Source: a virus. From it: a stretch of 34,709 nucleotides of DNA. Position numbers and translations under genes: made by a program. The notes beneath the pieces were generated by a model. The model was not told the DNA's origin, did no database searches, and worked only from the letters and a program-made list of their open reading frames with translations. Where the stretch lies: IMG/VR virus record IMGVR_UViG_3300024264_000097, positions 1-34,709 of that record; one strand, 5' to 3'. This document shows, one piece after another, positions 4,529-34,709 of this stretch (positions within the stretch are counted from its first letter, which is position 1; the number at the start of each line of letters is the position of its first letter).

Positions 4529-4551
4529 TACTTAAATAAAATTTAGTCACA

Positions 4552-4579: not shown

Positions 4580-4594
4580 ATTCTTTAATTTACC

Positions 4595-18300: not shown

Positions 18301-21300
18301 GTTATCTTGATTTCCGATAGTCCAATAACGGAAATTAATTGCAACATCTTTGTCATTAGTTAATTTATTTGAATTATGTACTACAAATCTATCATTGCCA
18401 AGAATAGTTACAAACTTTATTTGTTGTCCTGCAGGATCTTGTATTATATTAGAAATATCAAATGCTGTTCTATTTCTTCCTTCAATGTTTGGTACTACTC
18501 TAGTATCTTTGACCCAGAAGTAATAACGTTTACTAAAGCTCTGAGAAATATTATCGTATACATCTTTTTCTACATATCGTGTATCGCTATATTTTGTTTG
18601 CCCGCTGTAACCATCAGCTACGCCTTGATTAGTATTAGCTCTTAGATCCCATTGTGACGGAATTACTCTTGACTCGACCCATTCGTAAATGTCAACACTT
18701 GCACCTTGTGCAAGATTGCCCCAAATATTATTTGAATATGTAATATCACCTTGATGATAATCAACAAATTTTACTGTGCTTAAATCCCACCATAGTTTAC
18801 CAACATTTTTACTATTCCAAGAAGTTAGTGCTTCTTTACTTGAACTGTTGCCAACATTATAGTTTGCAGGGTCAAAATAAGTCTTGTAAGATAATTCTTG
18901 CTCTGCAATGCCTGCAATTTTTCCTAGCACAGGATCAATTATATCTAAACGAGAAAGCATTTTATTTTTACTAGTATCGTATATAAATGACCCTCTCATT
19001 TTAGTAATATCTACAGGTGTAACTGGACTTCTATGTACTGCCCACACTCTTGCTTCGCTATCTTTTATATAAACAGCAACCTTGCCGCCATCTAGTGCCG
19101 GAAGTCCTACTAATATTGTGTTATCTTGAACAATAGCGTTTTTACCAAAGTCTTTAACATTAAAATTATTATACTTTAATCTTTGACCAAATACTAATGT
19201 ATCATTTATATTCTCATATAGATATACAATCCCACTGTCTTGAACAGAACTTACATGAGTTGTAAATCCGTTATCAAATGTAGTTTGTCCTACTGATAGT
19301 TCACGTTGCGGATCATTAACATACTTGCTATTAAATGTAGCTTCCGAATTAGTGTCTCTATTTAAATACCTATCAAATGTAGTTTCTAAAATAATATCAC
19401 TTGTACTACCTGTAACAATTAATTGATCGCCATCAAAATCTAATCTTGCCCCAAACTCTTCAGCAAGTTCTTTATTTGGACTTTCTAATACTTGATGTAA
19501 ATTAAATGTTCCGCTTGTATTTTTGTAAACATATACTTTACCTTGTAGTAAATTTTCTCCAGTTGTACTAGGAGCACTAACTGCAACAAGGTTACCATTA
19601 TTTGAAACTGAAACTTTTGTTCCAAATCCTAAACTATCTTGAGGGGCTGCAAATTCTGTTAGATATTCAAAGTGATTATCTTTTAAGGCGTAAATTATAA
19701 GTTTATTACCAGTTGAGTATTCAGCTATAGTGGCTAATGTGTTGCCACGTTTACTAATATCAAATGTTTTTCCAAATGTACTTGTATTCAAATTAACAAT
19801 GCTGGAATCTTCGCCTGGGAAAACATAACCAGATGTGTTAGGCAAGTACCCTACAAAGTCAATATGATCACTTAACAATCTCCATTTTGTATTATCAAAT
19901 TCTTCATCACCTAGGTTAGTAAGAGCTTTGTAGAATACATCGTTATATATAACAATTTGACCTTCATAATAAGAATCGTTATTACTATAAACTCCTTTAA
20001 AGTTTTGATTTTTTCCTAACTGCCAATTATACTCACCAAATTCGTTTGATCCATGTATAACAAAATAAACTCGTCCACTGCCGCCGATAGCGTCAGTATC
20101 ATTAATATGATTTTCTTCACTGTTTAATACTAGTCTGTAGAAATTATCGTTATTAATTAACTTAACATCAGCTGCAAGTTTTCTATTATTTTCTCTGTTA
20201 GGAAGGATATATCCGTTGACTAAATCATAATTATCTGTTTCAGTATTATAAGAATATACAAAGAATGCACCTTCGTTTATAAAGGAACTTGCATCTCTAC
20301 CAACATTAATAGGAATATTATTAACTTCTTGCCAATCATTATTTTCAGTACTTGGTACTAACGGATTTCTTGGTAAGCCGGGTTTAAACTCTTCAATCCA
20401 AGTTTGATATTCTATACCTGAAATAAATTTAGTTTCATAATCTGCAATTTCATCTGTTTGACTACTAATTGCATATGTAAGTTTTGGTGGAATAACAAAA
20501 TTCTCTGCATGTTGGAATACTGCTAGTTTACCAATATCTTCATCAGCTAGTTGTCTAGACTCTGTTGAACCTATGAGTGTTTGCTGTATACCAACTTCTT
20601 TGTACAAGAACATTGCTTCTGTAACTGTTCCGCTGTAACGTTCGCCAAATGTAAATATTCCTGCAACATCTTTAACATATATTCTACATTTGTTTAAGTC
20701 TCTTTGGTAATACATAACTGTTGCAGTAGCACCAGTTTTTCCTTCACGTACAGTATCACCTACTTGAAAATCAATAAGACTATTATGAGTAAAGTCAATG
20801 TATCCGTCCCACAAATCATACGGTGTTTCAACTGTATTAATAATACTATAAGGATCATTACCAAACCCAGTATCACTTATATCAGGTAAGTTTCCAGATG
20901 CATCTCTAATGTCATTTAAGAATACTCCAACTTTAGTAGTTGGGTTGGACGCTACTTTATCTGAAACATTTTTAGGCATTCTAACAACCCATCGAGGATC
21001 TAAAACATCAACTTCTGTTGCGTCTCCAGCAATACCTTGGCTTTTATGACTTAAAACTCTAATTAGATCAACTTCTTTTTGGAAGGGTTGATCAATTGCG
21101 CCTAAAACTTGTATTGGATTATCTAATGCGTTTTGTGTACTAGAATTATAAGGAAGTCTTGCAGTACTTTCTGTCCAAGTAGCATTAGGGTTAGTAAATG
21201 TATTAGGATTGTAACTGTTTTTAACATCTGATATAACTAAACCGTATGCATTATCAGATGTAGTGTTTCCAGGAATATAAGAGTTATCTGTTGCAATTTC

Positions 21301-24300
21301 CCAGAAGCCGCCTAATACGTTACTTCTATCAATTTCATCATGTAACGGACGATTGTATGTGCCAATTAAGAACTGATCATTAATATAAAGCTCTCCGTTT
21401 TCTTCAAATACTCCATTTTTGTCATTAGCATAAATTACTAATCTGCCTAATTCTTTTCTAGTATATATAACTGTTGCATTACCAGTAGGTGTAGTAATTC
21501 GTGCTCCTGTTTCAATTAACGTAGAAATATCAGTCGGTACTGTGTTTGCACCTAAGTCAGTCCATTCAAGTGCTGTTTGACTTGTTTTGTTAATTAAATT
21601 GCCATCAGTTTTAAATATGCCAGATACATTAATTACTTCTATTACATTATTATTAATTTTATTTACAGTACCAATTACAGTATTATTATCTTGACCAATT
21701 AAATCGCCAACACTAATATTTGCTGTAGGAATTACATCTGTAGTTGTAAGTGTTACCGGAATATTTGGCGTATTTACTGGATCTATAATATAAAATACGT
21801 CTTCAACCTTACGTCTAATAGTATGTACTGTTTCAGTTAAAAATGATTTAGTTATTTCAGACTGAGCATTATTAAAAGGAGAATTAACTCTACGAATAAC
21901 ACCTTGTATTGTGCCGTCACCTAGATTAAAGTTGCTCGGATCTGCTCCAATGGGCTCTCCGCTAAATCCAATTGTACCGTTTAACTTGACTGTTAAACCC
22001 GGATCTCTATATAATTCAACTTGTTGATCTAGTAGTTTTTTAACATAGTATGTAGTACCTTCTAGACCCTTAACACCCTCTTGTCTTATAGTATCAAAAG
22101 GAACATTAATATCACTGTTGTCAAAAGTATCTGATCTAAAAGTTAAGTTATCATTAGTAAAATCTGTTAATATTATTGCGTCACCGTCTTGTAAACCGTG
22201 ATCAGTACGTGTTGTAAGTGTTACAGGTTTAATTATTCCATCTTCTTCAATTTGCATTCCAAGACCAACAATGTCAATACCTGGTTCATTAATATATGCG
22301 TTGGATAAATCATTCCAGTTAAAATAAACTCTATCGCCTACGTTGCTTCCTTCAAACGCATCTGCTGATGCTCGAACAAGCATATGATCTGTTGTTACAT
22401 CTTTTAACGGATAGTCACCTGTAGTAATTATAGGAAAATCTAAATAATTATTATACGTTTTATATAATTCCGAACGCCATCTGCTAACACTATCAAATGT
22501 ACCAAATACAACATTATCAGTTCTTCCAAAAACACGTCTACGTGATTTATATAGTCCGCCGTTATATTGTACAATGGAACCTAATTTATAATCACTTGTA
22601 AAATTAAAGTTATCTTTGAATGCACTTTTTACATAAGTTGCTTCTGGTGCTCCAACAACAATGTGTTTTCCGTCTGGACTCATTGCAACACTATCACCAT
22701 AGCGACTTGATCCGTTATCAAAATTTGTAATAGGTTCTAATGTTTGATGCGGCTGTAAAGTACCAAACACTGTACTTCCGTCTTGCTCTCTTTTGTAAAC
22801 GTGTACTTTACCTTGTCCGTCTGTTGGAGATCCAACAGCAACAAACGTATTATCAGCATCAGTTGCAATACTATCGCCAAATGCATCAGCAGTATTGTTA
22901 GGGTTGATTATATCTTCATCAAAATTATATGCATTTGATGCTTTTAGTACATTCCATGTATTTTTATCATCAACACTGTCAACCCATATTAATTCGTCGT
23001 TACTAATATCTGTTTCAGCATACTTGTTTGCATCTTCAAGTTTTCCTACACGGTTTGATATTAGTGTCGAAACTATACCAGCTAAATTAGTTTCTTCCTC
23101 AGTAAGTACACTTTCACCTAAATTAATAGTAACTCTATTTAAATTTACATTTACTACTTCATAAAATCCGTCAATGTCTACTACATTTTTAAGTCCAATA
23201 TAACTACCTACATCAAAATTAGATATTCTGTCTAAAATAATTTCTGCTTGATTTGATTCTAATGGAACTGCGCCAGTAGCAGTAAATACTGTATCAACAT
23301 GTTTGTACACATTCCATTCTTGACCTTCAAAGGTTACCCAAATATAGTCTCCTTCGGTTACAGTTTCGATATCTAAATTAAGTATATCTTCTTTATTTCT
23401 TACTACGTATCTTACATCAGTTTCTCTAACATATCCAGCAGTCTTAATTGGTGTTTCAGACAAATATGTTGTTGGAAAGGGAGTATGTGTATATTCGTTT
23501 GGTTTTACATATACGTCACTTGTTCGTTGACGATAAATTAAATCAGTTTCGTCACCAGTAATTGTATCTGTTAGTAATACAGGCTGAGGACTTAGATTCA
23601 TGTTTTCTTCGTCTAAAATAAATTCAATTTCATCAAATCCGTCAGCAGCTCCGTACTGTCCTGCACGTATTGCCCATTCTTCGTAAAATTCTAAACTTTC
23701 TTTATCTGCTGCTCCTAATGCATCAAATAATTTAGTTAACGCATTTCGAGTACCTTTATCTTGTATCATACCTTGATAAAATTTATACTGCGATACGTCA
23801 TCATTAATAATATTTGCTAGATAATCTCTTTTTTGGTAACCAATTAAATGTTGTGCTACTTCTTGTTGACCTACATCAAAATTATCAGTATCTAAATCGT
23901 AAAAGTCTGCAAACTGATTTGTTTTATATTCTAAGTTTGTTAATAACCTTGGCGTAGGTTTTTCTGCTAACCTGTACCAATTTGTTGCTATAAAATCTTT
24001 TGTTCCGCCTATTTTAGTAGTAGCAGTATAATAAAATTCTTTAAACTTAACTACGTCTCCAATAGCATAATCTTTATACGGTGTCCATTCTGTTGTTACT
24101 GCTTGGTCGTAAACAAATCCTGGAATATTTAAACCACCTGTCCAGTCAGCAGTTCTATATCCTAGTACACGAATACGTTCTTGTCTATATCCTGCTTCAG
24201 GATCATAAATTACATCTTTAAATTCAGTTACATTATCTAATAGTACAACATGTTCTTTCTGAACTAATGGCAGTTTTAATGAATATATTCCATCGGCTGT

Positions 24301-27300
24301 ATTTTTTAAAGATAATACAAAAGTATTATCATCTTGCCTAAATATATTACAAAATTCTTGTTTTAATTTAGTTCCGTCAGCTTTAACTAGCCCATAATCA
24401 TAAAAAGTATCAAATACATTATCAACTACTAAACTATCTCTTTTAAATTGTATTTTTCCTGCCGACGGACTTACTGTTATTAATGCTCCGCTATCCCAGT
24501 TCTGTAATGTCCAGAACATAAATTCTTTTGAACTTAGTTTCCAGTTTTCAACAGTTTCAAGTTCGTTATTAAAACTATCAAATACAAATCCAAGATCTTT
24601 TAAGTGTTCGCCGTAACCTATTAAAAAATCAACAACTTCTTGTGTGGTTTTTAATAGTGTACCGTATGGTAATTCTTGTGGAAAAACTTTATCAAACTGT
24701 GTTCTAAATATTGCACTACGACCGCCAACTTGTGGTAAACTTGCTAATTTAACAAATTTGCCAGTATCAAATATCTGTGTACTAGTGTGCCCTGTTGTTG
24801 TTTTATAAAACTGTCCGTTGTTTCTAACTACTGAACCTTCAATATAACGTTGATTAGAATCCCATTCAACATAGCTATCACTAACTCCTCCAACATTAAC
24901 TGTAGGATCTTTTTCGTTTGGTTGGAAATTGTAATATGTAAATGAAGGTCTTGTTGAATCATAACCTCTTAGTATATACCCACTAGAGGCTTTTTCAATA
25001 ACAACTCCGCTATATGTAACTAGCTCTACAGGACTACTTGTTTGAAGTATTACTTCATAATTTTCATCTGGAACGAAAACATTGCCTTGACTTAGCGGTG
25101 TTCGTGAATCTAAGATTAAATTAAATTTACTCTTGTCAGTAAATCCGCCAATCTTAAATGCCATTTGATTAGTAATACTTTTGACATTATTTTGATATTC
25201 TTCATAATTTACAAGAATATTACTTGCAAGATAATTAGCAATAAAATTAACAAATCCTGATGTATAAGTTCTTGTTCTAGTTTCTAATGTAGAATTATTT
25301 GGAAAGACTAAATCTTGTAATCTAATGCGTTTACCTGTTTCCGAATAAACAATTTGATCAGCACTATTTCTTTGTACACGTAATCTATCAAATCCTAATC
25401 CAATAATTTTTGCAGGCTGTAATAATATCCATGCTTTAAATAACGAAAATGCATATTCTGAACTTCTGCGCCAAGCTGTTTCAACTGGTGCTTCGTCACC
25501 GAATACAAATGTACTTCGTGTTAGCCTATTAACATAATTTTGTGCATATCCGCTATCTAACGGACTTAGTAAATTACCTTGTTCGTCAACTGGAATATAA
25601 GTTGTAAGATTTGGACGTTTATACTTGTCAATTATTTGTTTTACAACATTAGGTTGTGCTACAATTCCTTTTTCTAAATCTTGCCACATTAATAAATTGT
25701 TACTAGTATAAGGAGCCGGTCCGTACTGTGTTTCCCACCAAGTAGGCTTAATACTAAAGCCTAACATTTCCCAAGGATGTGTATGTGGACGATCGGTATC
25801 AAATGCTTGTTTGTATATTGCTCTCCAATAACCTGGCAATTGTTGACCTGTTGGTGAAACCATACTACTGTAGTTGTATGTAAATTTATTCTCTCTTTCG
25901 TAAAAGCTAAAATCAGTGTAATCAACATCACCAACTACACTCAACCAAGACGCAAAGTCTTTAAGCATGACTGTATCTATTTGGTCTTTAGAAATTGATG
26001 TATTTCTATTTGCTCCGGGCACAAAATCATTTATGTCAATTACATTTTCGTCATAGGATACTTTTAGATTATTGTAAATTCTCTTTTCAAATTCTAATAA
26101 TAAATCATCTCGGTAATCACCATATGCTCTTGTTATAGATCCGTCATGCCCTTGTATAACTTCTGTAGGTTCTATGTAAGATTTGTCAATGAACTTTTGA
26201 GGAATAAATTTTGGATACATTCCTAATTTTGTAGGAGTAGGTGGTACAAACGAACCATCTGTAGTCTCGTACTCATATATAGTTATTTGGTCGTCTTCAG
26301 TTAACGGTACTTCAATTTGGCAAAAGCCGTCTGCGTTAAAGGAGTATTGATCATCATATATTAATTGATCATCGTTAACATAAACCGTTACTGCTTTAAT
26401 ATCTGATTTTGTAATATCATATGCTTCTGATAGTGCATAAAATTTATTATTAGGAATTCCGGTGTACGTAAATACTCTAGCGCCGCCAGTTGGAACCATA
26501 TCACTAAAGTAAAACGGTAATGAACTAGTTTTATTTTTATTTAATTCTTTAAAAATTAAATCAACGTGTGCTTTTGGAGTTCCGTCAAACCCAAGTTGTG
26601 TAGATGTCTGTAAAAATAGTCTTTTAAACTTTGCATATTCTCGTCTTGCAAAATCAACAGACTTAATAATATTAGCACTTTTATCTGTAAGATGGTATAA
26701 CGCTAAATTTATAGGACCAGTATGCTGTAAGAATCTTCGACCATATTGTGAAGGATTAGCAATATCTCGTAAGTTGCCAACACCTGGAAAATTACCAAAG
26801 AAACTATCAGCTTCTTGTACTATACTAGATACATGTTCATTTACTTCACCTAAAGTAAATGTTGTAATATCGTTGTTTAAAGGATTTCTTTCTAAATTAC
26901 CTGCAATTTCATAAACACCGTTTTCATTTTTAGTTGCTGCAGAACGTGTTCTTAGAACTACAATATCATTAGTCGTCAGTACTGAATTAAATTGTACAAC
27001 TGCATTATTGTCAATGTTTACAATACTAAAATCAACACCTTCAAATTTAAAGTCATTATTAACTGTAACTCGAATATTTAGGTCTGTTAAAGAAGCACTA
27101 TCATTATATACATCTACAATAAAATTCTTTTGATTACGAGTTGCAGTATATTGTCTTAGAACTCTTTGTGTGCTTTCGCTACTTGCTTTTGTCCAACCGT
27201 TAACACTAACAAAATTTTCTCTACTACTATGTTTATGTAAAAAGCCGTTGTCAGTACCAAGTGATACTGTTTCTAAATTAGTATCAGTATATGTAAATGT

Positions 27301-29151
27301 TCTTTTTAACAAATCAAAGTTAAACACAACATCGCCAACATTTTCAATACTTCTATATGTTAACGGAAATCCAAGTTGTGCATCATCTGTGCCGGTGCCT
27401 ATAGCATATGAAAAAATCATATTACCTGTAAATGTACTATCAGTATAGTCAGCATAACTTATACCAGTATTATCAAAAAGTTCAAATAACGGTTGCTGGT
27501 TAGCTAATGTTTTTTCTTGTGTTAGATTCCAGTTTGTTCCGTTGTAATAAAACATACGGCCTTGATACTCTTGACCATTTAGTGCTAATACTGTTTCATT
27601 TTCTAAAGGATTAGAGTCTTCTTCCTCTATTAAACTTATTTGTTTACGACCTTTATGAATAAGAAACTTTACTTTAAATATTTTTCCTGCTTCGCGAATG
27701 TCTTCTTCGGCAGTGAATAACACTCTCATGCCGTCAACTAAATCAATACCGTCAATGTTATAACCTATCGATCCTTCAATTGTTGAAAAAATGTCTTTAG
27801 TAAATGTATCAATTAAGTCAACATTTGTTTTATTGACTATACCAAAGTTCATTAACTTTAAATCTGCATTAAATTCAATTATTGGTCTTGTAGCACGTTG
27901 TGCTTGATCAACGCTAATACTTTGTCCATTTGCTAATGCACTTGTTTCAATTACATCTTTATGGAACCAGCGATTATAGCGACTCCACATATTTCTATCT
28001 AAACTACCTCTATTAATAATAATATAATCTTTAGATGCAGGATAACCATTTGCATTAGCAAAAGGTAGTCTATCAAATGCGTTTACATCAAAAGGCACAT
28101 CTTTATTTTCTGAATATTCTCCAGGAATTTCTAAGTCTGTTTCCTTAATTAATCGAATAGAACTGCCTACACCTTCTACATAAAAGTCACCTTGACTATA
28201 AATTTCAGGAGTTACAAATCCTGCAAATGATATTTTCATACCATTAGATAAACTTAATCCATCTTTTGTAGTGTAACTAGTTTTTCCAATTATCTCTCGA
28301 CTAACATCAATTTCAGTATTTTCTTCAATATCTCGGACTTGTATTAATCCAGTATTGTTAATATCATCATTTGCAACATAATATAATACTTCTGGAGTAT
28401 CATTTCTCACAGTGATTGTAATACTACCTTTTTCAACTTCTTGGTCGCTAACACCATCATTATAATTAAAGCTAGATTCTAATGTGCGCTTTGTTTTAAA
28501 TGTTAACGGTGCTCCAGGAGTATCTATATCAAATGTGTATGTTTGTCCTCTATATAAAATTAATGTTGGATTATTTACTAAATCGTCTGTGCTAAAACTA
28601 TAAGTGTTATTATCAACATTATTAATTAAACTTACAGCAATAGTACTTTCAACACCTCGACTCTGTCCTGCAATCCTTACTGTTTGAGGACCATAAGGAA
28701 GCCAATAATATTCACGGAAGTTTGTAAATTTATCCCAATCAATATTTGGATTCCAAGCATAATATTCCTGCGAATTTAATACTTCTTGATTATTAACGTT
28801 TCCGCCGAAACTGTTAATTTGATTTAAGTAATCATTGTAGTCTTTATAAAAAGTAGTATTGTCTAAAGTATCTTTGATTAACGTAACTGGTTCAAACTGA
28901 TAATTTTCTCGCTGTACTGAAACATCGCCTACATAGTTGTCATCAGCGTTGTATGCTTTTGATACTTTTTTACCATAATATCCATTAAGTTTTTCAGCTA
29001 CACCTGGTTGGGTGAGTTGATCTAATGTAGATTGTAAAAACTTTTTGTTAGCGTCAGTTCTAAAAAACTTAGGAAGAAATTTTTCACTTTTTCTATTAGT
29101 ATTACCGTCAGCTGGTAATGGATATTCACTTTGGTCGTTTTCGTAAGCCAT
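12322..29151 (-). CDS. Giant mosaic baseplate/tail-associated structural protein (5609 aa)
   Basis: One uninterrupted 16.8 kb frame, about five times the length of T4 gp7 (1032 aa), whose genomic slot it occupies just after gp6. The ATG shares a base with the gp6 stop (TAATG). The N-terminus (DGNTNRKSEKFLPKFFRTDANKK cut short here; then YYAWNPNIDWDKF and FREYYWLPYG near 125-150) looks like the conserved start of large structural proteins in marine T4-like phages. Modules visible by eye: four CBM5/12-like units (about 1427-1469, 1687-1727, 2178-2229, 3052-3092); FG-GAP-like propeller blades (2088-2178 and 3123-3364); a WWDLSTVKF...YHQGD segment (3451-3494); glycine-rich GxGY repeats (3758-3817, 4103-4164); an inserted domain with an EF-hand-type loop at 4607-4618 (4455-4757); and a conserved C-terminal segment with FVEGERIEYF near 5420. 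Many segments are fibronectin- or fibre-like beta units. Likely role: a large wedge-peripheral or fibre-bearing component; this is inference. No frameshift or stop is seen. Confidence 0.85.
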   Translation of the reverse strand: MAYENDQSEYPLPADGNTNRKSEKFLPKFFRTDANKKFLQSTLDQLTQPGVAEKLNGYYGKKVSKAYNADDNYVGDVSVQRENYQFEPVTLIKDTLDNTTFYKDYNDYLNQINSFGGNVNNQEVLNSQEYYAWNPNIDWDKFTNFREYYWLPYGPQTVRIAGQSRGVESTIAVSLINNVDNNTYSFSTDDLVNNPTLILYRGQTYTFDIDTPGAPLTFKTKRTLESSFNYNDGVSDQEVEKGSITITVRNDTPEVLYYVANDDINNTGLIQVRDIEENTEIDVSREIIGKTSYTTKDGLSLSNGMKISFAGFVTPEIYSQGDFYVEGVGSSIRLIKETDLEIPGEYSENKDVPFDVNAFDRLPFANANGYPASKDYIIINRGSLDRNMWSRYNRWFHKDVIETSALANGQSISVDQAQRATRPIIEFNADLKLMNFGIVNKTNVDLIDTFTKDIFSTIEGSIGYNIDGIDLVDGMRVLFTAEEDIREAGKIFKVKFLIHKGRKQISLIEEEDSNPLENETVLALNGQEYQGRMFYYNGTNWNLTQEKTLANQQPLFELFDNTGISYADYTDSTFTGNMIFSYAIGTGTDDAQLGFPLTYRSIENVGDVVFNFDLLKRTFTYTDTNLETVSLGTDNGFLHKHSSRENFVSVNGWTKASSESTQRVLRQYTATRNQKNFIVDVYNDSASLTDLNIRVTVNNDFKFEGVDFSIVNIDNNAVVQFNSVLTTNDIVVLRTRSAATKNENGVYEIAGNLERNPLNNDITTFTLGEVNEHVSSIVQEADSFFGNFPGVGNLRDIANPSQYGRRFLQHTGPINLALYHLTDKSANIIKSVDFARREYAKFKRLFLQTSTQLGFDGTPKAHVDLIFKELNKNKTSSLPFYFSDMVPTGGARVFTYTGIPNNKFYALSEAYDITKSDIKAVTVYVNDDQLIYDDQYSFNADGFCQIEVPLTEDDQITIYEYETTDGSFVPPTPTKLGMYPKFIPQKFIDKSYIEPTEVIQGHDGSITRAYGDYRDDLLLEFEKRIYNNLKVSYDENVIDINDFVPGANRNTSISKDQIDTVMLKDFASWLSVVGDVDYTDFSFYERENKFTYNYSSMVSPTGQQLPGYWRAIYKQAFDTDRPHTHPWEMLGFSIKPTWWETQYGPAPYTSNNLLMWQDLEKGIVAQPNVVKQIIDKYKRPNLTTYIPVDEQGNLLSPLDSGYAQNYVNRLTRSTFVFGDEAPVETAWRRSSEYAFSLFKAWILLQPAKIIGLGFDRLRVQRNSADQIVYSETGKRIRLQDLVFPNNSTLETRTRTYTSGFVNFIANYLASNILVNYEEYQNNVKSITNQMAFKIGGFTDKSKFNLILDSRTPLSQGNVFVPDENYEVILQTSSPVELVTYSGVVIEKASSGYILRGYDSTRPSFTYYNFQPNEKDPTVNVGGVSDSYVEWDSNQRYIEGSVVRNNGQFYKTTTGHTSTQIFDTGKFVKLASLPQVGGRSAIFRTQFDKVFPQELPYGTLLKTTQEVVDFLIGYGEHLKDLGFVFDSFNNELETVENWKLSSKEFMFWTLQNWDSGALITVSPSAGKIQFKRDSLVVDNVFDTFYDYGLVKADGTKLKQEFCNIFRQDDNTFVLSLKNTADGIYSLKLPLVQKEHVVLLDNVTEFKDVIYDPEAGYRQERIRVLGYRTADWTGGLNIPGFVYDQAVTTEWTPYKDYAIGDVVKFKEFYYTATTKIGGTKDFIATNWYRLAEKPTPRLLTNLEYKTNQFADFYDLDTDNFDVGQQEVAQHLIGYQKRDYLANIINDDVSQYKFYQGMIQDKGTRNALTKLFDALGAADKESLEFYEEWAIRAGQYGAADGFDEIEFILDEENMNLSPQPVLLTDTITGDETDLIYRQRTSDVYVKPNEYTHTPFPTTYLSETPIKTAGYVRETDVRYVVRNKEDILNLDIETVTEGDYIWVTFEGQEWNVYKHVDTVFTATGAVPLESNQAEIILDRISNFDVGSYIGLKNVVDIDGFYEVVNVNLNRVTINLGESVLTEEETNLAGIVSTLISNRVGKLEDANKYAETDISNDELIWVDSVDDKNTWNVLKASNAYNFDEDIINPNNTADAFGDSIATDADNTFVAVGSPTDGQGKVHVYKREQDGSTVFGTLQPHQTLEPITNFDNGSSRYGDSVAMSPDGKHIVVGAPEATYVKSAFKDNFNFTSDYKLGSIVQYNGGLYKSRRRVFGRTDNVVFGTFDSVSRWRSELYKTYNNYLDFPIITTGDYPLKDVTTDHMLVRASADAFEGSNVGDRVYFNWNDLSNAYINEPGIDIVGLGMQIEEDGIIKPVTLTTRTDHGLQDGDAIILTDFTNDNLTFRSDTFDNSDINVPFDTIRQEGVKGLEGTTYYVKKLLDQQVELYRDPGLTVKLNGTIGFSGEPIGADPSNFNLGDGTIQGVIRRVNSPFNNAQSEITKSFLTETVHTIRRKVEDVFYIIDPVNTPNIPVTLTTTDVIPTANISVGDLIGQDNNTVIGTVNKINNNVIEVINVSGIFKTDGNLINKTSQTALEWTDLGANTVPTDISTLIETGARITTPTGNATVIYTRKELGRLVIYANDKNGVFEENGELYINDQFLIGTYNRPLHDEIDRSNVLGGFWEIATDNSYIPGNTTSDNAYGLVISDVKNSYNPNTFTNPNATWTESTARLPYNSSTQNALDNPIQVLGAIDQPFQKEVDLIRVLSHKSQGIAGDATEVDVLDPRWVVRMPKNVSDKVASNPTTKVGVFLNDIRDASGNLPDISDTGFGNDPYSIINTVETPYDLWDGYIDFTHNSLIDFQVGDTVREGKTGATATVMYYQRDLNKCRIYVKDVAGIFTFGERYSGTVTEAMFLYKEVGIQQTLIGSTESRQLADEDIGKLAVFQHAENFVIPPKLTYAISSQTDEIADYETKFISGIEYQTWIEEFKPGLPRNPLVPSTENNDWQEVNNIPINVGRDASSFINEGAFFVYSYNTETDNYDLVNGYILPNRENNRKLAADVKLINNDNFYRLVLNSEENHINDTDAIGGSGRVYFVIHGSNEFGEYNWQLGKNQNFKGVYSNNDSYYEGQIVIYNDVFYKALTNLGDEEFDNTKWRLLSDHIDFVGYLPNTSGYVFPGEDSSIVNLNTSTFGKTFDISKRGNTLATIAEYSTGNKLIIYALKDNHFEYLTEFAAPQDSLGFGTKVSVSNNGNLVAVSAPSTTGENLLQGKVYVYKNTSGTFNLHQVLESPNKELAEEFGARLDFDGDQLIVTGSTSDIILETTFDRYLNRDTNSEATFNSKYVNDPQRELSVGQTTFDNGFTTHVSSVQDSGIVYLYENINDTLVFGQRLKYNNFNVKDFGKNAIVQDNTILVGLPALDGGKVAVYIKDSEARVWAVHRSPVTPVDITKMRGSFIYDTSKNKMLSRLDIIDPVLGKIAGIAEQELSYKTYFDPANYNVGNSSSKEALTSWNSKNVGKLWWDLSTVKFVDYHQGDITYSNNIWGNLAQGASVDIYEWVESRVIPSQWDLRANTNQGVADGYSGQTKYSDTRYVEKDVYDNISQSFSKRYYFWVKDTRVVPNIEGRNRTAFDISNIIQDPAGQQIKFVTILGNDRFVVHNSNKLTNDKDVAINFRYWTIGNQDNNIHTEYQIITDGLETSRPKDVIEEKWFDSLIGADKYGREVPDSSLSVKQKYGNQNRPRQSWFINRQEALKQFIERVNRVLINELAVDNLNLTKLTDSEPLPSTLSGLYDSAIDIDEELRLVGTVRATQAILEPVLVDGTVTGVNLINPGRGYKIPPKIISTGTGSGLELRANINTLGIITSVDVINGGTYYKDDLTLSVRPLSTLVRADSTIGGAWSIYAWDDNTRTWSISSQQSYNVQDYWNYVDWYADGFSSLTAIDFLIDDFYQLNIIDDNIGDISKVSDVGSGGWILLEKIVNIDTPDYTTGYKTIGRQNGTIEIVNKLYDTDNDCSIELRKILETIRDELFIDELANEYNQLLFASLRYVLSEQNYADWVFKTSFIKAKHNVGELKEKTTFQNDNLPSFEAYVEEVKPYKTKIREYLSAYDKLDNTQSVVTDFDLSPFYDPQRGEIISPKVTINDGVLSDINFDVNEFPQKNWIDNFTYSVTEILIESGGSGYTEVPSVIISGGGGTGATATAFIGSGQVKSILVNNQGSGYTSIPTVNIEGTQSEDGTQPRVSIVLGNKKIRTINVKQKFDRITPNFETLNLKETETFISTGTELKIQLKWPLDLTKANVSVVIDGVEALDSEYSYNNESIKASGETHTSEYGYITLERSRVAGTTIAVTYNKSYELLSAADRINLLYNPETGQYGKDLGQLMDGVDYGGVEVRSFEFGQDLGYDSRPWYTTEWDNYDENFDDESFTTTGIQTSFTLSKPLEVDTTYNVYLNATRVDDINYDGSTKTYLADDGSTVLALGNPNAIMKSLSTESDEYEVTTDASGLPVYKINIENVDEWEDYFQSGGTPEVAGLPADAEYNNGAISNVTGDGSDFFKREVTTNGVRIMGAGTVGGQTAVPDAWLEKVARMFELFLDPNGAGINEAFQRNLIKTLSGDAGTWHEGLPTLQRVARGSGAEYTPNFLTDAGVISWNLTPLFDSHVANDMVWYLNSTGDGYGDGEIDAQEVIEHVFHTLHMHGLTDDIKLYSYISADWATGPLYAAMEEAFDAGKWEPIGYQTPLNAWKTDADAFEVAAKEYMYLLNFAMFDYTGLWDGNSLDPEWADDVRTPAQIQATLPISYAFFNTYIAPVISKPSLATINSIFGDGNTPAQDDPSLAGASGYVVDIVVDGTPAVAGTSINPTVTIRKSTSDGSFLPSGSGFDTLLEGGNLQYGTATGLDAGSINLDGDGFVTPTTSKGPEELVPGQLHDTLDLKVYDRVADGGSLISTRNYTSTDSQTEFDLSILPHNIYSLFVKINGTLLTETQYEIDYFNKSITLNTPLSAGDIVNISSMAGNGERILDIDNFTGDGTTRIFVTKSVYREGLQSYITVNGLKSQVAIFETDSTYGDLQGLVGLEFVTSPEENAFIYYALYDTNESTVQRYSEATVNRYIGDGSTVGFNLSPEPSTRLPLSHNVIVKVDDTILYPGYTQQWYISSTREYPLDRAQYPGSTLAPDQVDVYINGRKLKFLIDYNWDFGNSQVVLFDNVGETGDDLEIVIPSTAEYSFAKNTRLVITQVTGTFTEGEQVTIGYPDSTQFTATVKSYSSNVLTIIGTLPGLEQLADADDTIPVEGQTSNAISTRIQDVDLIEAGDSIVLESIPAQDATIDVFTFSRHEIQDIQMETKTTVSRSVLTVGDNDYYEAHRRGKGLIKLRSPALDTAYVWVVLNGILLTPNRDYKLVKLDSYIQITRPLVANDIVQVIHFAAPKSNEKFGFRMFKDMLNRTHYKRLNKDNVYTLLQDLNVTDKEIVLADASDITIPDVAKNNPGVLFVEGERIEYFQVDGNVLSQLRRSTLGTGARTIYEAGTECMDQSDKETIPYKDQMVSTIALDDESTQILLDWMPTNGVNELEIFVGGRRLRKNAITAYQFQETDADGNLVTGLIDQNSPGGDIVLDAEFTLTIDNNVATVSLVDTPEANSRILIVRKLGKTWQSPGEQLRYSQNPIAQFIRGATTGLPE
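14880..15790 (-). other. Inserted ~300-residue domain with EF-hand-type loop and His cluster in the giant protein
   Basis: Residues ~4455-4757 of the giant protein differ from the surrounding beta-repeat sequence: they are helix-rich, Trp-rich and His-rich. Residues 4607-4618 (DGYGDGEIDAQE) fit a calcium EF-hand loop at positions 1, 5, 6, 8, 9 and 12. The loop runs straight into a helix EVIEHVFHTLHMH with His at 4622, 4625, 4628 and 4630. It is not an HExxH zincin motif. A metal-binding role is plausible; a hydrolytic or autoprocessing role is speculation. Confidence 0.55.
19060..19785 (-). other. FG-GAP-like beta-propeller block in the giant protein
   Basis: Residues ~3123-3364 contain successive blades of the form FGxxVSVSNNGNLVAVSAP...GKVYVYK, then EFGARLDFDGDQLIVTG and FGKNAIVQDNTILVGLPA...GKVAVYI. 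This is the FG-GAP (integrin-alpha-like) repeat pattern. A further pair of blades is at residues ~2088-2178 (nt 22620-22890), with FGDSIATDADNTFVAVGSP and YGDSVAMSPDGKHIVVGAP. Such blades form propellers used for protein or ligand binding. Confidence 0.7.
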
Positions 29152-32100
29152 TAGTAACCATAGCCTCCACTTGATGAACTAGATGATCCAGAAGAACTAC
29201 TCGAACTTCCTGAATTTGAATTAGACGAACTACTTGAGCTGCCTGAATATGTCGATGTTGGTATTGATGTTGACACTGTTACTCCTGGAGAGCTTACAAT
29301 ATTTGATTGTACTGTTGTTGTTTCGTCTGCATATATTGCACCAGTAGCTTTTAATTTTGATGCAGTAAGAGATGTTACGACTTCAATATTTTCTACAGTT
29401 GCAGAACTTACAAATATTTCGTCTGCTTCTGATTTGACTTCAAACAAACTACCAAAAGTTAAACCTTCTTGTAAAGGAACAATTACAAAAGCAGATAAAT
29501 TAGGTGCTACTTTACTCATTACATATGTACTAAGCTCAGTAAAGTAAAAAGTATCACCAAACTCCCAATTCTCAATTGCAAAAAATTCATTAATAGCGCC
29601 TATTACAGATGCTTTGAGTTCGTTATCGTTTACAACACGACTAGGGTTTTTAACTATTTTAAATGTTGCTTTCAAATCTTCTGACGAGTCCTTTCCAAAT
29701 AATACTTTGTACTTAACCGGATGATAAATTACCTCGTCACTGATTGACTTAATTGAATTAATATTTTCACCAAAGTTTACAAAAAGTGCATCACTGCTTG
29801 GTGCCAACGGTTTTATAGTTGAACTACTTTGTAAGTATTGCCTAAATGCAGTGTCATACTGTTTTGTCAGCATATACACATCGATTATATTTGAACTACT
29901 AGGATCTATTCTATTACTTTCATCCGCAGCATGTTCGTATTGGAAAATAATATCATCTCTACCTTCGTATGCACGATAATTTACAGTTAATTCTAATGCT
30001 TCAGTAGTTGTATTGTATACTTTAAATATGTCTTTATTAATTATATAAAACACACTGTTGTCAGGATAAGTTGTTACACCATTATCTATGATTTCTTGCT
30101 CGTCTAAAACTGGTGTTATTAGATCACTTGCAGCGTCAACATATCTAAAATCGTCAATATTATCAGTTGTTGTATATTCCTTTAAAAATATAAATTTATT
30201 TTTATCATTAGTAGTAATAAACTTTGTAAAAATTTCTGGATCATCAACTACGCCGTCGTCGTCTGAATCAAGAAATCCAATTTCTACTTTTTTACTATCT
30301 ACGTAGCCTTCTGCATCTCTGTATTCTTTTATAATTTCCCAATTAAAAGGTACAGTAAACGGAGTAAGTGCATAGCCATTTGCAGTTGGTTGTGTATTAA
30401 TACTTAACAAACTGATTTTATCTTTTACAATTTGATTAGTTATTGGATCGTAAACTTTATCCGAACTATCGTAATAAAATCTTATTTCTTTATCACTTTC
30501 AAATACGTATCTTTGTCCTCTAGAAGTGATAGTGTAAGTTTCGCCGTCAGTTTCAAATAATAACAACCAGCTTGAATCAAGATTTTGATTTGTCAAATCT
30601 CCTGTTTTACCTGTACTAAAAGCAGACAGAGTATCGAGATTAGGTTCTAGTACTACACGCCAAGTTGTAGTATTAAAATCATATCTTAGACCAAAAGTTT
30701 TATATGTAAACACTTGGTCAATAATTTGTGTTTGAATTTGAGTTTCAATACCTGTTACAAATACCGGTTTAATTTCGGTAAGTAACGGAGCAGTATTTAA
30801 GTCGCCATTAATTGGACCAGGTATTACATCGTTAAGAACAATAGCACCTAAACCGTCGTTTGTATTATCAACACCTGGACCGTTAACACTTACAACTTTA
30901 GTCCATTTATAAGTTGTTGCATTAGGATGATTTGGAAGTCCTAGCATAAGTGTATGAGAGTTATCTGACATAAAATGATAACCTTCTGGAGCAGTAAATT
31001 TTAACATTGACCCTGGTTCTAAAAATTGTAGTGTTGATCCTGTAAACGATCCTGTCCTCAATTTAGAAGAATCTGCATCTGTCAAATATCCTGTTGAAAT
31101 ATTTTGTGCTTTAGTTACTTGATTCCAACGTGCGCCTAAATCGCCTACTAATATTTTAGAAAACTTCGCATAGTAAAAATTCTTAGTTTTATAATCACTT
31201 AGAATTCTTTCAATTTGATTTTTTATTACACCTTCGATGTCTGTTCTTGTATTAAATGTAAAATTTTCTTTACTAGTAAGATTTTGTGTATAAATTACAC
31301 CGTCTTTACCGTATAAGTTTGTTTTACTATATTTTCCAGTTGCATCAAGTAAGTCATAATATCTACTAATACCACTTGATGTTCTGTTCACACTTTTTAC
31401 TTTTATAATTTCTTGACTAATTGCCAACGGAGCAATATTATAATCTTCACCCGTAACCATTCTATTTTGTGTATAGTATGTTGCAGGAGCATTTGCTTTT
31501 ATTTCATCATTTGTTTCTGATGTAGTGCCGTTGTCAATTGTATATTTTAATTCTAAACCAATAGTAAGTTTTTCACTAGTACCTGATTTGCTTTGATACG
31601 GTATACTAATTGTAATATTAATTAATTCATCTGGTGTAATTACATAGCTTTTATTTTCACTAACTCTATAATAAACTTTAAAGTTACCTTTAGGTAGTTC
31701 ACCAAATGTACCGTCACTAAAAATTAAACTAATTCTATCTTCAACTCTAGTTAAGACACTGTAAATGTTTCTAACGTTTTTACTTAAACTGTTATAAACA
31801 ATGTTGTTGCCTTCAATTGCGTCGACTTTTGTCCACAACTCTGATTCATTGCCTATACTATCTAACTTGTATAGCCAAGTGTCAGTGTTGTTTACATCTA
31901 TTGCATCAAGCGCAACTACTTGGTTAGTAGACGGATTAGAAATATTAAAGTTTCCTTGATCTAACCTACCTTGTCTAAAGTGTGCAAAAAATCCTGTGTT
32001 TGAGCTTCCTGCACCTTGGCCGTCATCTCTATATAAAAAAGCAAAGTTATTACCTGGTAGCGGAGCTTCTTCTGTGATTTCTGTATTTTCTAATCCAGTT

Positions 32101-32747
32101 GACACTATTTCAAAATTTGTATTTCTTCCGTCAACACTTTTACTAAATGCAAATACAGGAATATCTGTATTTGTTCCGTTTACTCTATATTGTTCTGCAC
32201 TTACTCCATTTACTGTTGCTGTTTTTACAGGACGACCGTATACTGAGTTTGCAGGAAGTGACGAATTTAAAACTTTAATAAATTGTTCGTACCAATCTTG
32301 ATTTGAAATATCATTCCAAAGTACAGTTTGTCCTGATAAGTTAGTGCCATTAGAATCATATAATTCTTCAGTAGTGCTTACAGTTTCAAATTTTAGTAAT
32401 CCATTAGCTGCTTGATTACGTTTAGGATTATAGGAAAGCAATCTTGCTAAACGTAATACACTTTCGCGACGTTCTGCTAATTCTAAGAAATTTTCACGAG
32501 CATTTAAATCAATACGATAACTAATATTTTGACCTAGGAAAGCTATAAGGTCAATTAATGCTAGGTATTCGCTTGATTCGATATAGTCATTAAAATCTTC
32601 TGGATAATTTTGACGTATATAATTAATCATAGTTCTACGCAAATTATCAAAGTCATAACTTTGGAAGTCTGCGTTACGGAAAGATTGGTAAATTCGCTTC
32701 CAGTCTTCCGCTAATAATAATCTGTTTTGTCTGTCTGTGCTTGACAT
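29151..32747 (-). CDS. 6: Baseplate wedge protein gp6 (1198 aa), Ser-rich tail
   Basis: The N-terminal ~120 residues carry the hallmark of T4-type gp6 in marine phages: a W-x-R-I-Y-Q-S-F segment, INYIRQNYPEDFNDYI, then ALIDLIAFLGQNISYRIDLNARE and SVLRLARLLSYNPKRNQ. gp6 belongs to the baseplate J-like family and forms the ring that links the six wedges around the hub. At 1198 residues it is close to twice the T4 protein (660 aa); the extra length lies in the beta-rich middle and C-terminal parts. Residues 1168-1198 are a Ser/Gly/Asn low-complexity tail ending GGYGY. The ATG has AAGGAAA at 32754-32760 and a late-type promoter at 32771-32780. The stop overlaps the start of the giant gene, which points to coupled synthesis and probable partnership in the wedge. 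Confidence 0.92.
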   Translation of the reverse strand: MSSTDRQNRLLLAEDWKRIYQSFRNADFQSYDFDNLRRTMINYIRQNYPEDFNDYIESSEYLALIDLIAFLGQNISYRIDLNARENFLELAERRESVLRLARLLSYNPKRNQAANGLLKFETVSTTEELYDSNGTNLSGQTVLWNDISNQDWYEQFIKVLNSSLPANSVYGRPVKTATVNGVSAEQYRVNGTNTDIPVFAFSKSVDGRNTNFEIVSTGLENTEITEEAPLPGNNFAFLYRDDGQGAGSSNTGFFAHFRQGRLDQGNFNISNPSTNQVVALDAIDVNNTDTWLYKLDSIGNESELWTKVDAIEGNNIVYNSLSKNVRNIYSVLTRVEDRISLIFSDGTFGELPKGNFKVYYRVSENKSYVITPDELINITISIPYQSKSGTSEKLTIGLELKYTIDNGTTSETNDEIKANAPATYYTQNRMVTGEDYNIAPLAISQEIIKVKSVNRTSSGISRYYDLLDATGKYSKTNLYGKDGVIYTQNLTSKENFTFNTRTDIEGVIKNQIERILSDYKTKNFYYAKFSKILVGDLGARWNQVTKAQNISTGYLTDADSSKLRTGSFTGSTLQFLEPGSMLKFTAPEGYHFMSDNSHTLMLGLPNHPNATTYKWTKVVSVNGPGVDNTNDGLGAIVLNDVIPGPINGDLNTAPLLTEIKPVFVTGIETQIQTQIIDQVFTYKTFGLRYDFNTTTWRVVLEPNLDTLSAFSTGKTGDLTNQNLDSSWLLLFETDGETYTITSRGQRYVFESDKEIRFYYDSSDKVYDPITNQIVKDKISLLSINTQPTANGYALTPFTVPFNWEIIKEYRDAEGYVDSKKVEIGFLDSDDDGVVDDPEIFTKFITTNDKNKFIFLKEYTTTDNIDDFRYVDAASDLITPVLDEQEIIDNGVTTYPDNSVFYIINKDIFKVYNTTTEALELTVNYRAYEGRDDIIFQYEHAADESNRIDPSSSNIIDVYMLTKQYDTAFRQYLQSSSTIKPLAPSSDALFVNFGENINSIKSISDEVIYHPVKYKVLFGKDSSEDLKATFKIVKNPSRVVNDNELKASVIGAINEFFAIENWEFGDTFYFTELSTYVMSKVAPNLSAFVIVPLQEGLTFGSLFEVKSEADEIFVSSATVENIEVVTSLTASKLKATGAIYADETTTVQSNIVSSPGVTVSTSIPTSTYSGSSSSSSNSNSGSSSSSSGSSSSSSGGYGY
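29154..29246 (-). repeat. Low-complexity Ser-rich tail of gp6
   Basis: The last 31 codons of gp6 encode three runs of six serines separated by Gly and Asn, ending GGYGY. The codons used for Ser vary (TCA, TCT, AGT, TCG, TCC), so the tract is kept at protein level rather than being a pure DNA slippage repeat. Confidence 0.85.
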
Positions 32748-32808: not shown

Positions 32809-33255
32809 CTAAACAAGAATTGCATTATCTTCATCAAATTTTAAACGCATACTTTCTGATATATTGTATGGCAAATATGTTAATGTACACTCTATCATTA
32901 TACCACTTTCATAAGTATCTACTGTAACTTGATCTACTTGTACTCTTGGATCATAGTTAATAACTTCTGTGACATTATCAGCTATTGCATTTCTTAATGC
33001 TGCTGTCATTGGTTCAAATAGTACGTCCCATATAATCGTACCAAAAGCAGGATTTTCTAATTTTTCGCCTACTCGTATATGAAAGTGATTGATAATGTCT
33101 TGTTTTATTAGAGCAATGTCGTAAAGATTAAAACTACCGCTTTCGCTGTTTACAGTAGAAACGCCTTTATATGCTCTACTCTCTATCGGAGCCGAAGGAC
33201 GTTTATTAGTTTTTACTTGTATTTCTTTATATAATTTTTTCTCTTGTGTGCTCAT
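32809..33255 (-). CDS. 25: Baseplate wedge subunit gp25
   Basis: At 148 residues it is close to T4 gp25 (132 aa) and fits the GPW/gp25 family, which is conserved through contractile tails and type VI secretion (TssE). The segment RVGEKLENPAFGTIIWD (61-77) is the family signature for a lysozyme-like fold without clear lysozyme activity. Y-D-P-R at 101-104 corresponds to the conserved EPR motif core that bridges gp6 and the sheath initiator. gp25 nucleates sheath polymerisation in T4. The N-terminal ~40 residues are a basic, flexible arm. The ATG lies 15 bases after the stop of the hub/hydrolase gene with only a weak AGGG at 33265-33268, so coupling to the upstream gene is likely. The next gene, gp6, is its direct structural partner. 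Confidence 0.95.
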   Translation of the reverse strand: MSTQEKKLYKEIQVKTNKRPSAPIESRAYKGVSTVNSESGSFNLYDIALIKQDIINHFHIRVGEKLENPAFGTIIWDVLFEPMTAALRNAIADNVTEVINYDPRVQVDQVTVDTYESGIMIECTLTYLPYNISESMRLKFDEDNAILV

Positions 33256-33270
33256 AACGTATTTACCCTA

Positions 33271-34709
33271 TTATTGTGGACCGGCTGCTGGAGAAGCATC
33301 AGGATCAACTCTGTTACCTGCTTCAATATTTGTACCTGCTGGTTCTGTTGTAATGCTTGCTACAGGAGTCAAATCGCCAGTTATAATTTTACTTGCAAAT
33401 CCTCTTCCTAAACCAATACGATTAGCAGTTTCTGCGCCGCCTTGATCAGCATAACCGACTGCTCTACGGAATTGTTCACCTAACGCTCCAAAATCGTAAC
33501 TATCCCAACTCACTGTTTTAGATTGGATATATGCACATGCAATTCTTACAGCAATTTCAGGATCGTTAACTAGATCAGGATTTTCAACAATTTCAGGATG
33601 TCCTGCTTTTGGACCATACGTTTCGTAGTTGCCTTTAAATGTTAGCTGTATAAGCCCACGGCCACGATACTTATATCCTTCGTTTTGTGCATTGCCATAT
33701 CTGTTACCATACAACGTATTACCAATTGCAGCAGGTCCTGCTGCAACAAGCTCTTGAGCAAATGCGTCACTTCTTACACGAGTTGGAAATACTCGTCTTA
33801 GTGTACTAGCTCTGTAATTTAAGTTTTCGCTTCTTGGTTTGAATCCACATTCTGCTTGTATTTGTGCCATTGCCATACCAAGTGCTTCTGCATTACCCGG
33901 AGTTTCACCATCACCAAGTCTATTAGGATCTGCTGTTTTAAGAGCATTTGCAGGATCAAGTCCAATTTTTTTAATAAGTTCACTTAAGAAAAACTGTTGC
34001 AATAGTGTAACTTCAACTGGTTTTGCTGGTTGGTTGCCGCTGACTCCAACTTCTCCTGGAACAACTGTTTGTGAGCCGTTTATGTTAGCTGCTGAAACTG
34101 TTGCACCTGTTGCTGCACCACTACCTGCTAAGTCTGCATCACTACCTAACTGCGGTGAAGTTTCTCTTAATGCAGGACTTGGATTTGGTGCTGCTTGTGT
34201 ATATTGCGGCGTGAATGTGCCAGGATCTAAATGTTCATGTGCATTCCAAGGCTCATGTACAGGAACTCTAACAGGCCATAACGCAGATCCTGCTGTAGTA
34301 GCTACTGAAGCACTTCCCGCACTTACTGCACTAGTTGCTGCTGGACCATTTAAGTGTATATTTGGTGAAGCTGACATTAAGATATCAGCACCCGATGCTA
34401 CTTCTGTTGCGGCACCTGAAGTTACACGATTATAGCCACCGGTATTTAAATCTAAATTTGCTTGTGTGTCTTTTCTATCGCCAACTGTATTAATATCAAA
34501 TGTAGCTTGATTAGTAATCTTATGTGCGCCAGTTACTACTAAGTCTCCTGCTGCTCCAACAAATATTTTTTGCGATGCACCTACATAATGATTTTCATCT
34601 GAGCCAATTTCCATATTATGTTTAGCACCGACTTTATAGTCACTATTTTGACCAACTGTTAATTTATAATCTCTACCTGCATTATAATTAATATCTCTAG
34701 CAGCAGTCA
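33271..34709 (-). CDS. 5: gp5-like baseplate hub/spike protein fused to GH19-type lysozyme/chitinase domain (5' partial)
   Basis: The frame stays open to the right window edge; the in-frame ATG at 34614 is internal, since 31 more residues of the same repeat pattern precede it. The N-terminal part in the window is a run of strands with Gly turns (YKLTVGQ, YKVGAKH, MEIGSDE, HYVGASQ, IFVGAAG), with a VxVG-like ~8-residue period as in the gp5/VgrG spike beta-helix. A WPVRVPVHEPW segment follows at about 140-150 in window numbering. The C-terminal domain (about 235-435) is of the predicted chitinase/lysozyme class (GH19-like, COG3179): ECGF with putative catalytic Glu 286, then SENLNY with Glu 294, then LYGNRYGN and the signature YRGRGLIQLT and NYETYG. 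It should cut peptidoglycan under the tail tip. In T4 gp5 the lysozyme is a different fold placed before the beta-helix. Confidence 0.88.
   Translation of the reverse strand, partial: TAARDINYNAGRDYKLTVGQNSDYKVGAKHNMEIGSDENHYVGASQKIFVGAAGDLVVTGAHKITNQATFDINTVGDRKDTQANLDLNTGGYNRVTSGAATEVASGADILMSASPNIHLNGPAATSAVSAGSASVATTAGSALWPVRVPVHEPWNAHEHLDPGTFTPQYTQAAPNPSPALRETSPQLGSDADLAGSGAATGATVSAANINGSQTVVPGEVGVSGNQPAKPVEVTLLQQFFLSELIKKIGLDPANALKTADPNRLGDGETPGNAEALGMAMAQIQAECGFKPRSENLNYRASTLRRVFPTRVRSDAFAQELVAAGPAAIGNTLYGNRYGNAQNEGYKYRGRGLIQLTFKGNYETYGPKAGHPEIVENPDLVNDPEIAVRIACAYIQSKTVSWDSYDFGALGEQFRRAVGYADQGGAETANRIGLGRGFASKIITGDLTPVASITTEPAGTNIEAGNRVDPDASPAAGPQ

Follow-up and report, generated by a model that had tools for sequence, protein, structure and literature searches.

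A GH19-type hydrolase behind the beta-helix of a putative gp5-type phage spike whose C-terminal enzymes appear to be exchanged between relatives

The minus-strand gene at the end of the viral DNA analysed here (IMG/VR record IMGVR_UViG_3300024264_000097, a 34.7-kb fragment of 34,709 nucleotides, hereafter the window) is best read, with a probability of about 0.8, as encoding the gp5-type central spike of a contractile-tailed phage, a relative of the jumbo phages RaK2 and PA5oct, in which a GH19 domain would occupy an exchangeable C-terminal cassette acting at the cell wall. The complete 827-aa protein consists of an OB fold, a lysozyme-free middle part, a beta-helix, an RxPxHEPWxxHE motif, a linker and the GH19 domain. 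Related spikes carry many other wall-cutting enzymes, or none, at the same spot, so that the spike looks like a mount for swapped cutting heads.

The spike gene and its neighbours

The minus-strand frame at 33271-34707 stays open over 478 codons and continues past the window end. Position 34709, the upper limit of the range in the sequence-only reading, is the window edge and not the end of the gene. A second contig, L001 (IMGVR_UViG_3300024255_000243), overlaps the window over 7436 bases with 0 mismatches and contains the entire spike gene (L001:4954-7437); the data set as a whole consists mostly of metagenomic contigs. The coordinates of all features are given in Table 1.

Table 1. Features of the spike gene and of the downstream baseplate genes (window positions unless marked L001)
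Feature	Position	Strand	Residues	Remarks
Spike gene, 3' part	33271..34707	-	350-827 and stop codon	Part of the 827-aa protein
Spike gene, remaining part	L001:4954-6000		1-349	Outside the window
Beta-helix, C-terminal part	34315..34707	-	350 to about 480 (end estimated)	Gp5_trimer_C, DUF2345
Junction motif RVPVHEPWNAHEHLDP	34222..34269	-	496-511	
Linker	34024..34221	-	512-577	
GH19 domain	33376..34023	-	about 578-793	Matches in Pfam and PHROG, and in PDB by sequence and fold
E635	33850..33852	-	635	First Glu of the catalytic pair
E643	33826..33828	-	643	Second Glu of the catalytic pair
T705	33640..33642	-	705	In the conserved GRGLIQLT segment
gp25-type baseplate wedge gene	32809..33255	-		Next gene downstream of the spike; GPW_gp25 E 1.4e-8
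gp6-type baseplate wedge gene	29151..32747	-		phrog_10646 E 1.2e-297; phrog_219

Upstream of the spike, L001 carries a late sigma factor gene, which lies on the opposite strand, as well as genes for a virion structural protein and a gp53-type protein and, at the hub position, an 865-aa gene whose sole PHROG match is "virion structural protein"; downstream follow the gp25- and gp6-type genes. RaK2-like jumbo phages are annotated with the same gene order, RaK2 itself having extra genes before gp25. Among the related spike clusters described below, a gp53-like gene lies upstream of the spike in 120 of 125 testable clusters, a hub-like gene directly upstream in 107 of 134, and in 90 of 162 a gp25-like gene follows within 1.5 kb. 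The window gene therefore has the baseplate gene context of a gp5-type central spike. Further downstream, the gp6-type protein has a long Ser/Gly-rich C-terminal tail, and positions 12322-29151 (minus strand) hold a single ORF of 5609 aa, at the gp7 position as judged by gene order, which matches the virion structural family phrog_10938 over its first 1600 residues.

OB fold and beta-helix

The N-terminus matches the gp5 family phrog_13211 (whole-protein E 2.4e-48, best stretch residues 20-208). The OB match of the 827-aa protein itself is weak (Phage_base_V E 1e-3; 19.8 bits, below the Pfam cut-off of 23.8), and the cut-off is passed by its homologues L127 (26.5 bits), L214 (26.2), RaK2 (33.1) and XacN1 (46). 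Together these matches place the N-terminal OB fold of a gp5-type spike in the part of the gene beyond the window, where the sequence-only reading had suggested looking for one; the finding that would have refuted that reading, a complete gene lacking such a fold, did not arise. No lysozyme family was matched between OB fold and helix by Pfam or PHROG, so that the lysozyme found at this place in T4-type gp5 proteins is missing.

The beta-helix of gp5C/VgrG type is recognized by Gp5_trimer_C, both in the window frame (E 1.7e-4 at residues 2-71; 22.1 bits, below the Pfam cut-off of 30.9) and in the 827-aa protein (E 9.3e-6 at 346-418), and by DUF2345 (E 5.4e-5 at 319-413 of the 827-aa protein). 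The latter two matches are likewise below the Pfam cut-offs, and DUF2345 exceeds its cut-off in homologues such as L101, L137 and L138. A profile of 15 N-terminal parts gave one row and no usable match against solved structures (E 0.87), and an AlphaFold2 monomer of the full-length spike (pLDDT 51.6) was not taken into the fold search.

On L001, the stretch from the motif to the first Met of the enzyme contains no ATG, no GTG and one TTG, and thus no evident separate start. Taken with the gp5-family N-terminus and the OB fold of the homologues, this indicates that the enzyme belongs to the spike. The order first proposed from the window, with helix repeats in front and a GH19-type hydrolase at the C-terminus, was borne out by Pfam, PHROG and the whole gene on L001, and its reading as a gp5-type spike was upheld by the OB fold, the beta-helix and the position of the gene between the hub-position gene and gp25.

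The GH19 domain

The window frame matches Glyco_hydro_19 at E 9.3e-6 (residues 341-393), with 26 bits against a cut-off of 25.5; the whole 827-aa protein reaches 25.0 bits, just under the same cut-off. The frame also matches the PHROG endolysin family phrog_181 (E 2.1e-33), and the top sequence matches among solved structures are to GH19 endolysins and to 8xcl, a T6SS effector domain (8p8e at E 2e-13, 9ms6, 9eoi, 8xcl and 4ok7). In an AlphaFold2 model built from 25 GH19 tails (pLDDT 86.3), structural alignment gave Z 17.2 with 9eoi (rmsd 2.5 over 184 residues), 16.7 with 8p8e, 16.3 with 4ok7 and 15.5 with 8xcl. Endolysin-type structures scored Z 13.5-17.2 and GH19 chitinases at most 11.3, so the domain is predicted to be nearer in fold to endolysins than to chitinases.

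The two putative catalytic Glu residues named in the sequence-only reading are present as E635 and E643, the Glu pair of the GH19 endolysin subfamily, and, like T705, each is conserved in no fewer than 90% of the aligned GH19 tails (25 of 26 tails, that of L023 being left out). The median dN/dS among 10 homologues was 0.126 in the GH19 domain (45 usable of 45 pairs), 0.164 in the OB region (42 usable pairs) and 0.182 in the helix (45). The motif region gave 0.078 (24), the middle 0.213 (39) and the linker (residues 516-585), the fastest-evolving region tested, 0.274 (44). With synonymous sites close to saturated (median pS 0.56-0.69), these values are rough. The GH19 domain is under purifying selection at least as strong as that on the needle. 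Given catalytic residues, selection and fusion to the spike, it is reasonable to assume that a wall-cutting role at the tail tip was kept.

Relatives of the spike and their C-terminal tails

A scan of IMG/VR yielded 74 relatives from 75 candidate stretches, and further spikes were collected with an N-terminal query and two N-terminal alignments; since the alignment searches gave the best 80 matches each, the sample is large and incomplete. The spike N-terminus was found in 296 of 312 scanned loci (313 minus the window's own), 270 of them with a complete frame, and these were reduced to 169 clusters on shared 4-mers, for which "about 90% identity" is an estimate.

The chain behind the junction motif measures 16-72 residues in 61 clusters and at least 209 in 79. 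The latter and 12 long clusters without the motif provide 91 long C-terminal tails, which fall into 12 groups (Table 2). In a first clustering, 76 of 95 tails had joined one group, which was attributed to the shared linker; the clustering was redone after removal of the 90 residues that follow the motif.

Table 2. Groups of long C-terminal tails
Tail group	Clusters	Pfam results
GH19	26	
M15 peptidase	15	M15_4 E 9.2e-15 (L117)
Dac-like	8	Phage_lysozyme2 also in L107 (4.9e-24) and L157
VgrG3-type	8	VgrG3-like_C E 8.7e-35 (L203)
LysX	7	No recognition in three scanned members
SLT	7	SLT E 8.1e-6 (L146)
T4-type lysozyme of cultured jumbo phages	6	Phage_lysozyme E 4.4e-9 (RaK2)
GH104-like, including Atu_ph07 (trypsin-like)	5	Trypsin_2 E 6.1e-17 (Atu_ph07)
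Hydrolase_2/M15	3	Hydrolase_2 E 5.8e-8 (L199)
GH24	3	
SLT_3	2	SLT_3 E 1.3e-17 (RAS14)
CHAP	1	CHAP E 5.7e-7 (L178)

The names Dac-like, LysX and GH104-like were given by eye, with no firm Pfam identity in scanned members. Pfam also reported Phage_lysozyme in the L182 tail (E 1.1e-17). In XacN1 and RAS14, SLT_3 lies about 240-300 residues short of the protein end. XaC1 was grouped by its lysozyme tail, the lysozyme not being reported by the Pfam scan, and the scan of the SCTP-2 spike protein returned no hydrolase match.

In the remaining 78 clusters, scored "none", no enzyme was detected. They comprise the 61 that end 16-72 residues past the motif and 17 without the motif, of at most 800 aa and left unclustered, some of which may hold an enzyme: when cut at residue 430, three of their tails (L288, L307 and L310; 184-227 aa) had been placed in the SLT group by the first clustering. 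L219 was counted as "none" although a hydrolase is its next gene, the 477-aa PA5oct protein was counted so by length alone, and L170 was counted as GH19.

Inheritance and exchange of tails

The 13 tail states require 25 changes on a FastTree tree built from the N-terminal part (169 rows), against a minimum of 12 and a shuffled mean of 86.7. A mixture-model IQ-TREE tree (155 rows, 11 states), from which 12 cultured and two long-branch rows had been removed, requires 23, against a minimum of 10 and a shuffled mean of 76.3. Being above the minimum and far below the shuffled values, these counts indicate inheritance of tails inside clades and their exchange from one clade to another. Presence or absence of an enzyme requires 13 changes on the FastTree tree and nine on the IQ-TREE tree. 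Part of the tree is poorly supported, and the well-supported branches alone force at least five changes for "none" and at least three for GH19.

When 25 GH19 tails were placed in one tree with three outside GH19s, the window type paired with the GH19 of a long protein encoded on contig L073, and the L101 type is separated from it, with good support, by outside GH19s lying between them. L298 and L306 form a third, less supported lineage, and L170 and PhiW-14 are long branches. On this topology, two or three captures of GH19 are probable.

The junction motif

RxPxHEPWxxHE follows the helix in 140 of 169 spike clusters. The search pattern fixed only EPW..HE-like letters and left the R and the first P free; both free positions are nevertheless occupied at 1.0, and the first His at 0.80. 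Outside spikes the motif occurred in six places, of which four are spike fragments at contig ends and the remaining two are in L219 and XacN1. We tentatively consider that the motif may be a dedicated mount at the spike end for hydrolases of some ten unrelated kinds, which phages would exchange either fused or as motif-bearing neighbours (L219, XacN1). The segment could possibly form a trimer apex that holds a metal, through H506 and, in about 80% of clusters, H500, or else serve to dock a PAAR tip. If the mount reading is true, a large group of aquatic phages would possess its own "evolved VgrG" system, with the cutting enzyme perhaps fitted to the host wall and with domains shared with T6SS effectors.

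Neighbouring hydrolase and PAAR genes

Hydrolases were also found as separate genes beside the spike. A CHAP-type gene lies between spike and gp25 in 15 clusters (that of L101 matches Pfam CHAP at E 1.6e-11), and these free proteins are homologous, down to E 1.2e-92, to the CHAP tail fused on the L178 spike. In L219 the spike is split: the upstream protein (2876-4720) ends after the helix without the motif, and the next gene (L219:4723-6387, 555 aa), which overlaps the spike stop codon, starts before a VPMREPWTQHEHLNP motif and continues with Phage_lysozyme2 and a Dac-like part. Similarly, the spike of Xanthomonas phage XacN1 lacks the motif, and RMPMHEPW is found in a separate gene beside it (L152:6682-7521), which encodes an M23 peptidase. 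The CHAP, L219 and XacN1 cases thus show an enzyme, or even motif and enzyme together, either fused to the spike or as its neighbour, and fusion and fission of adjacent genes are a plausible route of exchange. In five of six cultured RaK2-like records (BF, GAP32, XaC1, PBECO4 and RaK2), a free T4-type lysozyme gene stands beside the fused one.

PAAR genes were found in three of 16 records, the three largest, namely L107 and L163 with hydrolase spikes (L163 being assigned to the M15 group by its cluster) and L259 without a hydrolase; absence from the others says little, because these records are smaller and may be fragments. A PAAR gene (E 6.7e-7) also lies beside the GH19 spike of L065. Such tip genes accompanying hydrolase-bearing spikes speak for the spike reading preferred below. 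In T6SS, PAAR tips coexist with C-terminal effectors.

Comparison with known systems

Cultured jumbo phages provide the closest comparison. RaK2 gp078, CBB_240, GAP32 and BF share with the window spike the homologous N-terminal part and helix (30-36% identity to cultured jumbo phage records), the gene order and a C-terminal hydrolase. In place of GH19, however, they carry a lysozyme of T4 type, frequently accompanied by a weak M23 match, so that the window spike departs from the RaK2-like gp5 in its terminal enzyme. In the available parts of the reports, the RaK2 protein is described as a helix with a C-terminal lysozyme, "a very unusual domain composition" (PMC3622015), and that of CBB as having an N-terminal gp5 domain and a C-terminal lysozyme, unlike T4 (PMC5259590); the domain order of the window spike is thus not new. 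T4 gp5 also shares the OB fold, the triple-stranded beta-helix and the baseplate gene context, but its lysozyme, according to the accessible text, lies between OB fold and helix, is blocked by the helix until the helix dissociates, and is subject to one cleavage at Ser351/Ala352 (PMC3004832), whereas the window protein has its enzyme behind the helix. The sequence-only reading had a GH19-type enzyme replacing the T4 lysozyme, with domain order and fold changed. The hydrolase behind the helix stands; a change of order and fold from a T4-like state in the window lineage is unsupported as worded, because RaK2, GAP32, BF and CBB already have the helix first and a T4-type lysozyme last, and because other relatives have no hydrolase, GH19 being one of many C-terminal occupants.

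Evolved VgrGs, such as VgrG3 variants, resemble the window spike in joining a helix spike to a C-terminal peptidoglycan hydrolase, and Pfam reports T6SS_VgrG3-like_C on the L102 and L203 spikes. In VgrG the hub part is inside the same chain, whereas the window-type spike has its hub-position gene separate (865 aa) in a phage baseplate locus. By analogy, the window-type spike is best read as the phage equivalent of an evolved VgrG of the T6SS. In the portion of the source available, VgrG3cp is described as a muramidase effector (PMC9927483).

The GH19 endolysins SPN1S, PaGH19Lys and KTN6 gp46 and the C-domain of TseP share the fold (Z 15.5-17.2 with the predicted model) and the Glu pair, but are free enzymes or effectors outside phage spikes. 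PaGH19Lys is reported, in the text available, as a muramidase with the putative pair E51/E60 (PMC12329726), and TseP with E655/E663, the first being E654 in another passage (PMC11893102). In Delftia phage PhiW-14, gp82 is a GH19 protein encoded directly before gp25 and called gp5 hub and tail lysozyme in one record; unlike in the window spike, GH19 is N-terminal and followed by what by eye is a gp5-like helix, Pfam reporting GH19 alone. As far as the available excerpts go, wall-cutting enzymes on the puncturing device are also known from phiKZ gp181, a 246-kDa needle-like puncturing protein with glycosidase activity (PMC5380687), and from A-1(L), whose lysozyme, endoglucanase and peptidase domains are on the hub gp15 and not on the spike (PMC10966104), and a jumbo phage survey refers to lysozymes associated with tails and to standalone PAAR proteins (PMC7824862). 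No cyanophage gp5 for comparison was among the matches listed. Neither exchange on one spike scaffold nor the junction motif is described in the titles and abstract beginnings among the matches listed, mostly outside subscription papers. The exchange of tails on one scaffold therefore seems new, the nearest published cases, in the parts available, being single C-terminal lysozymes or general tail enzymes.

Proposed mode of action and alternatives

From these comparisons we infer a trimeric spike at the tail tip with an active enzyme, and the following course of infection. The N-terminal OB fold would seat the spike on the hub, the beta-helix would form the needle, and RxPxHEPWxxHE would close or dock its end, the flexible linker of each chain tethering a muramidase-type GH19 domain. 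The needle would pass through the outer membrane upon tail contraction, and the hydrolases tethered to it would thereby enter the periplasm and open the peptidoglycan for the tail tube. Located behind the helix, the enzyme should escape a block of the T4 type and need no helix release. The C-terminal position would thereby serve as an exchangeable cassette for unrelated hydrolases or none, as in evolved VgrGs, and the related hydrolases encoded by the next gene in some relatives would point to exchange by fusion and fission.

Membership of the GH19 domain in an endolysin family (phrog_181), and the endolysins among its nearest solved structures, might suggest a separate lysis endolysin that happens to carry a beta-helix, but this is highly improbable for a complete gene that joins a gp5-family N-terminus, with an OB fold in its homologues, to the enzyme in a single reading frame and sits between the hub-position gene and gp25. 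It is somewhat less improbable, though still quite unlikely, that the domain is a wall-binding or structural GH19 relic without enzyme activity, as the GH19-like tail of L170, devoid of the Glu pair and of a Pfam GH19 match, could suggest: the conservation of the Glu pair and T705 and the low dN/dS argue against a relic, as do the intact-looking hydrolases of other folds at the same place in relatives.

Release of the enzyme, which would then act as a free lysin or in superinfection and not at the tail tip, is an equally unlikely alternative. The long, fast-evolving linker, the one cleavage known in T4 gp5 (PMC3004832, in part) and the separate neighbouring hydrolases of some relatives would fit it; the fusion is, however, retained in 52 complete GH19 homologues. 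The gp5-type spike with a tethered, exchangeable hydrolase is therefore preferred.

If so, one spike scaffold has seen many enzyme changes (23-25 on two trees) while the needle and, in most clusters, the junction motif stayed constant, a phage-side parallel of effector exchange on T6SS spikes. Such repeated change on a constant needle makes two questions testable, namely the fit of the enzyme to host peptidoglycan and its action without a T4-type helix release. If spike enzymes are fitted to host peptidoglycan, they might link uncultured phages to host types.

Observations on individual spikes

Several individual spikes stand apart. In L170 (4939-8031; 1031 aa), the tail lacking the Glu pair, one of 26 in the GH19 group, is perhaps a degenerate enzyme. 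The GH19 spike of L023 (4954-7812; 952 aa) has an extra Thr/Ser-rich C-terminal extension. The LysX domain (L108:2833-5277, L137:875-3367 and L231:6199-8553), common to seven clusters and marked by a G/RESN motif, is possibly an undescribed lysozyme-like enzyme. Agrobacterium phage Atu_ph07 (L148:3791-6388) has a trypsin-like protease domain (Trypsin_2) C-terminal on a gp5-type protein. Finally, the 477-aa protein of Pseudomonas phage PA5oct (L076:3923-5356) is annotated as "baseplate hub subunit and tail lysozyme" and seems to stop soon after the helix, and its lysozyme label looks inherited.
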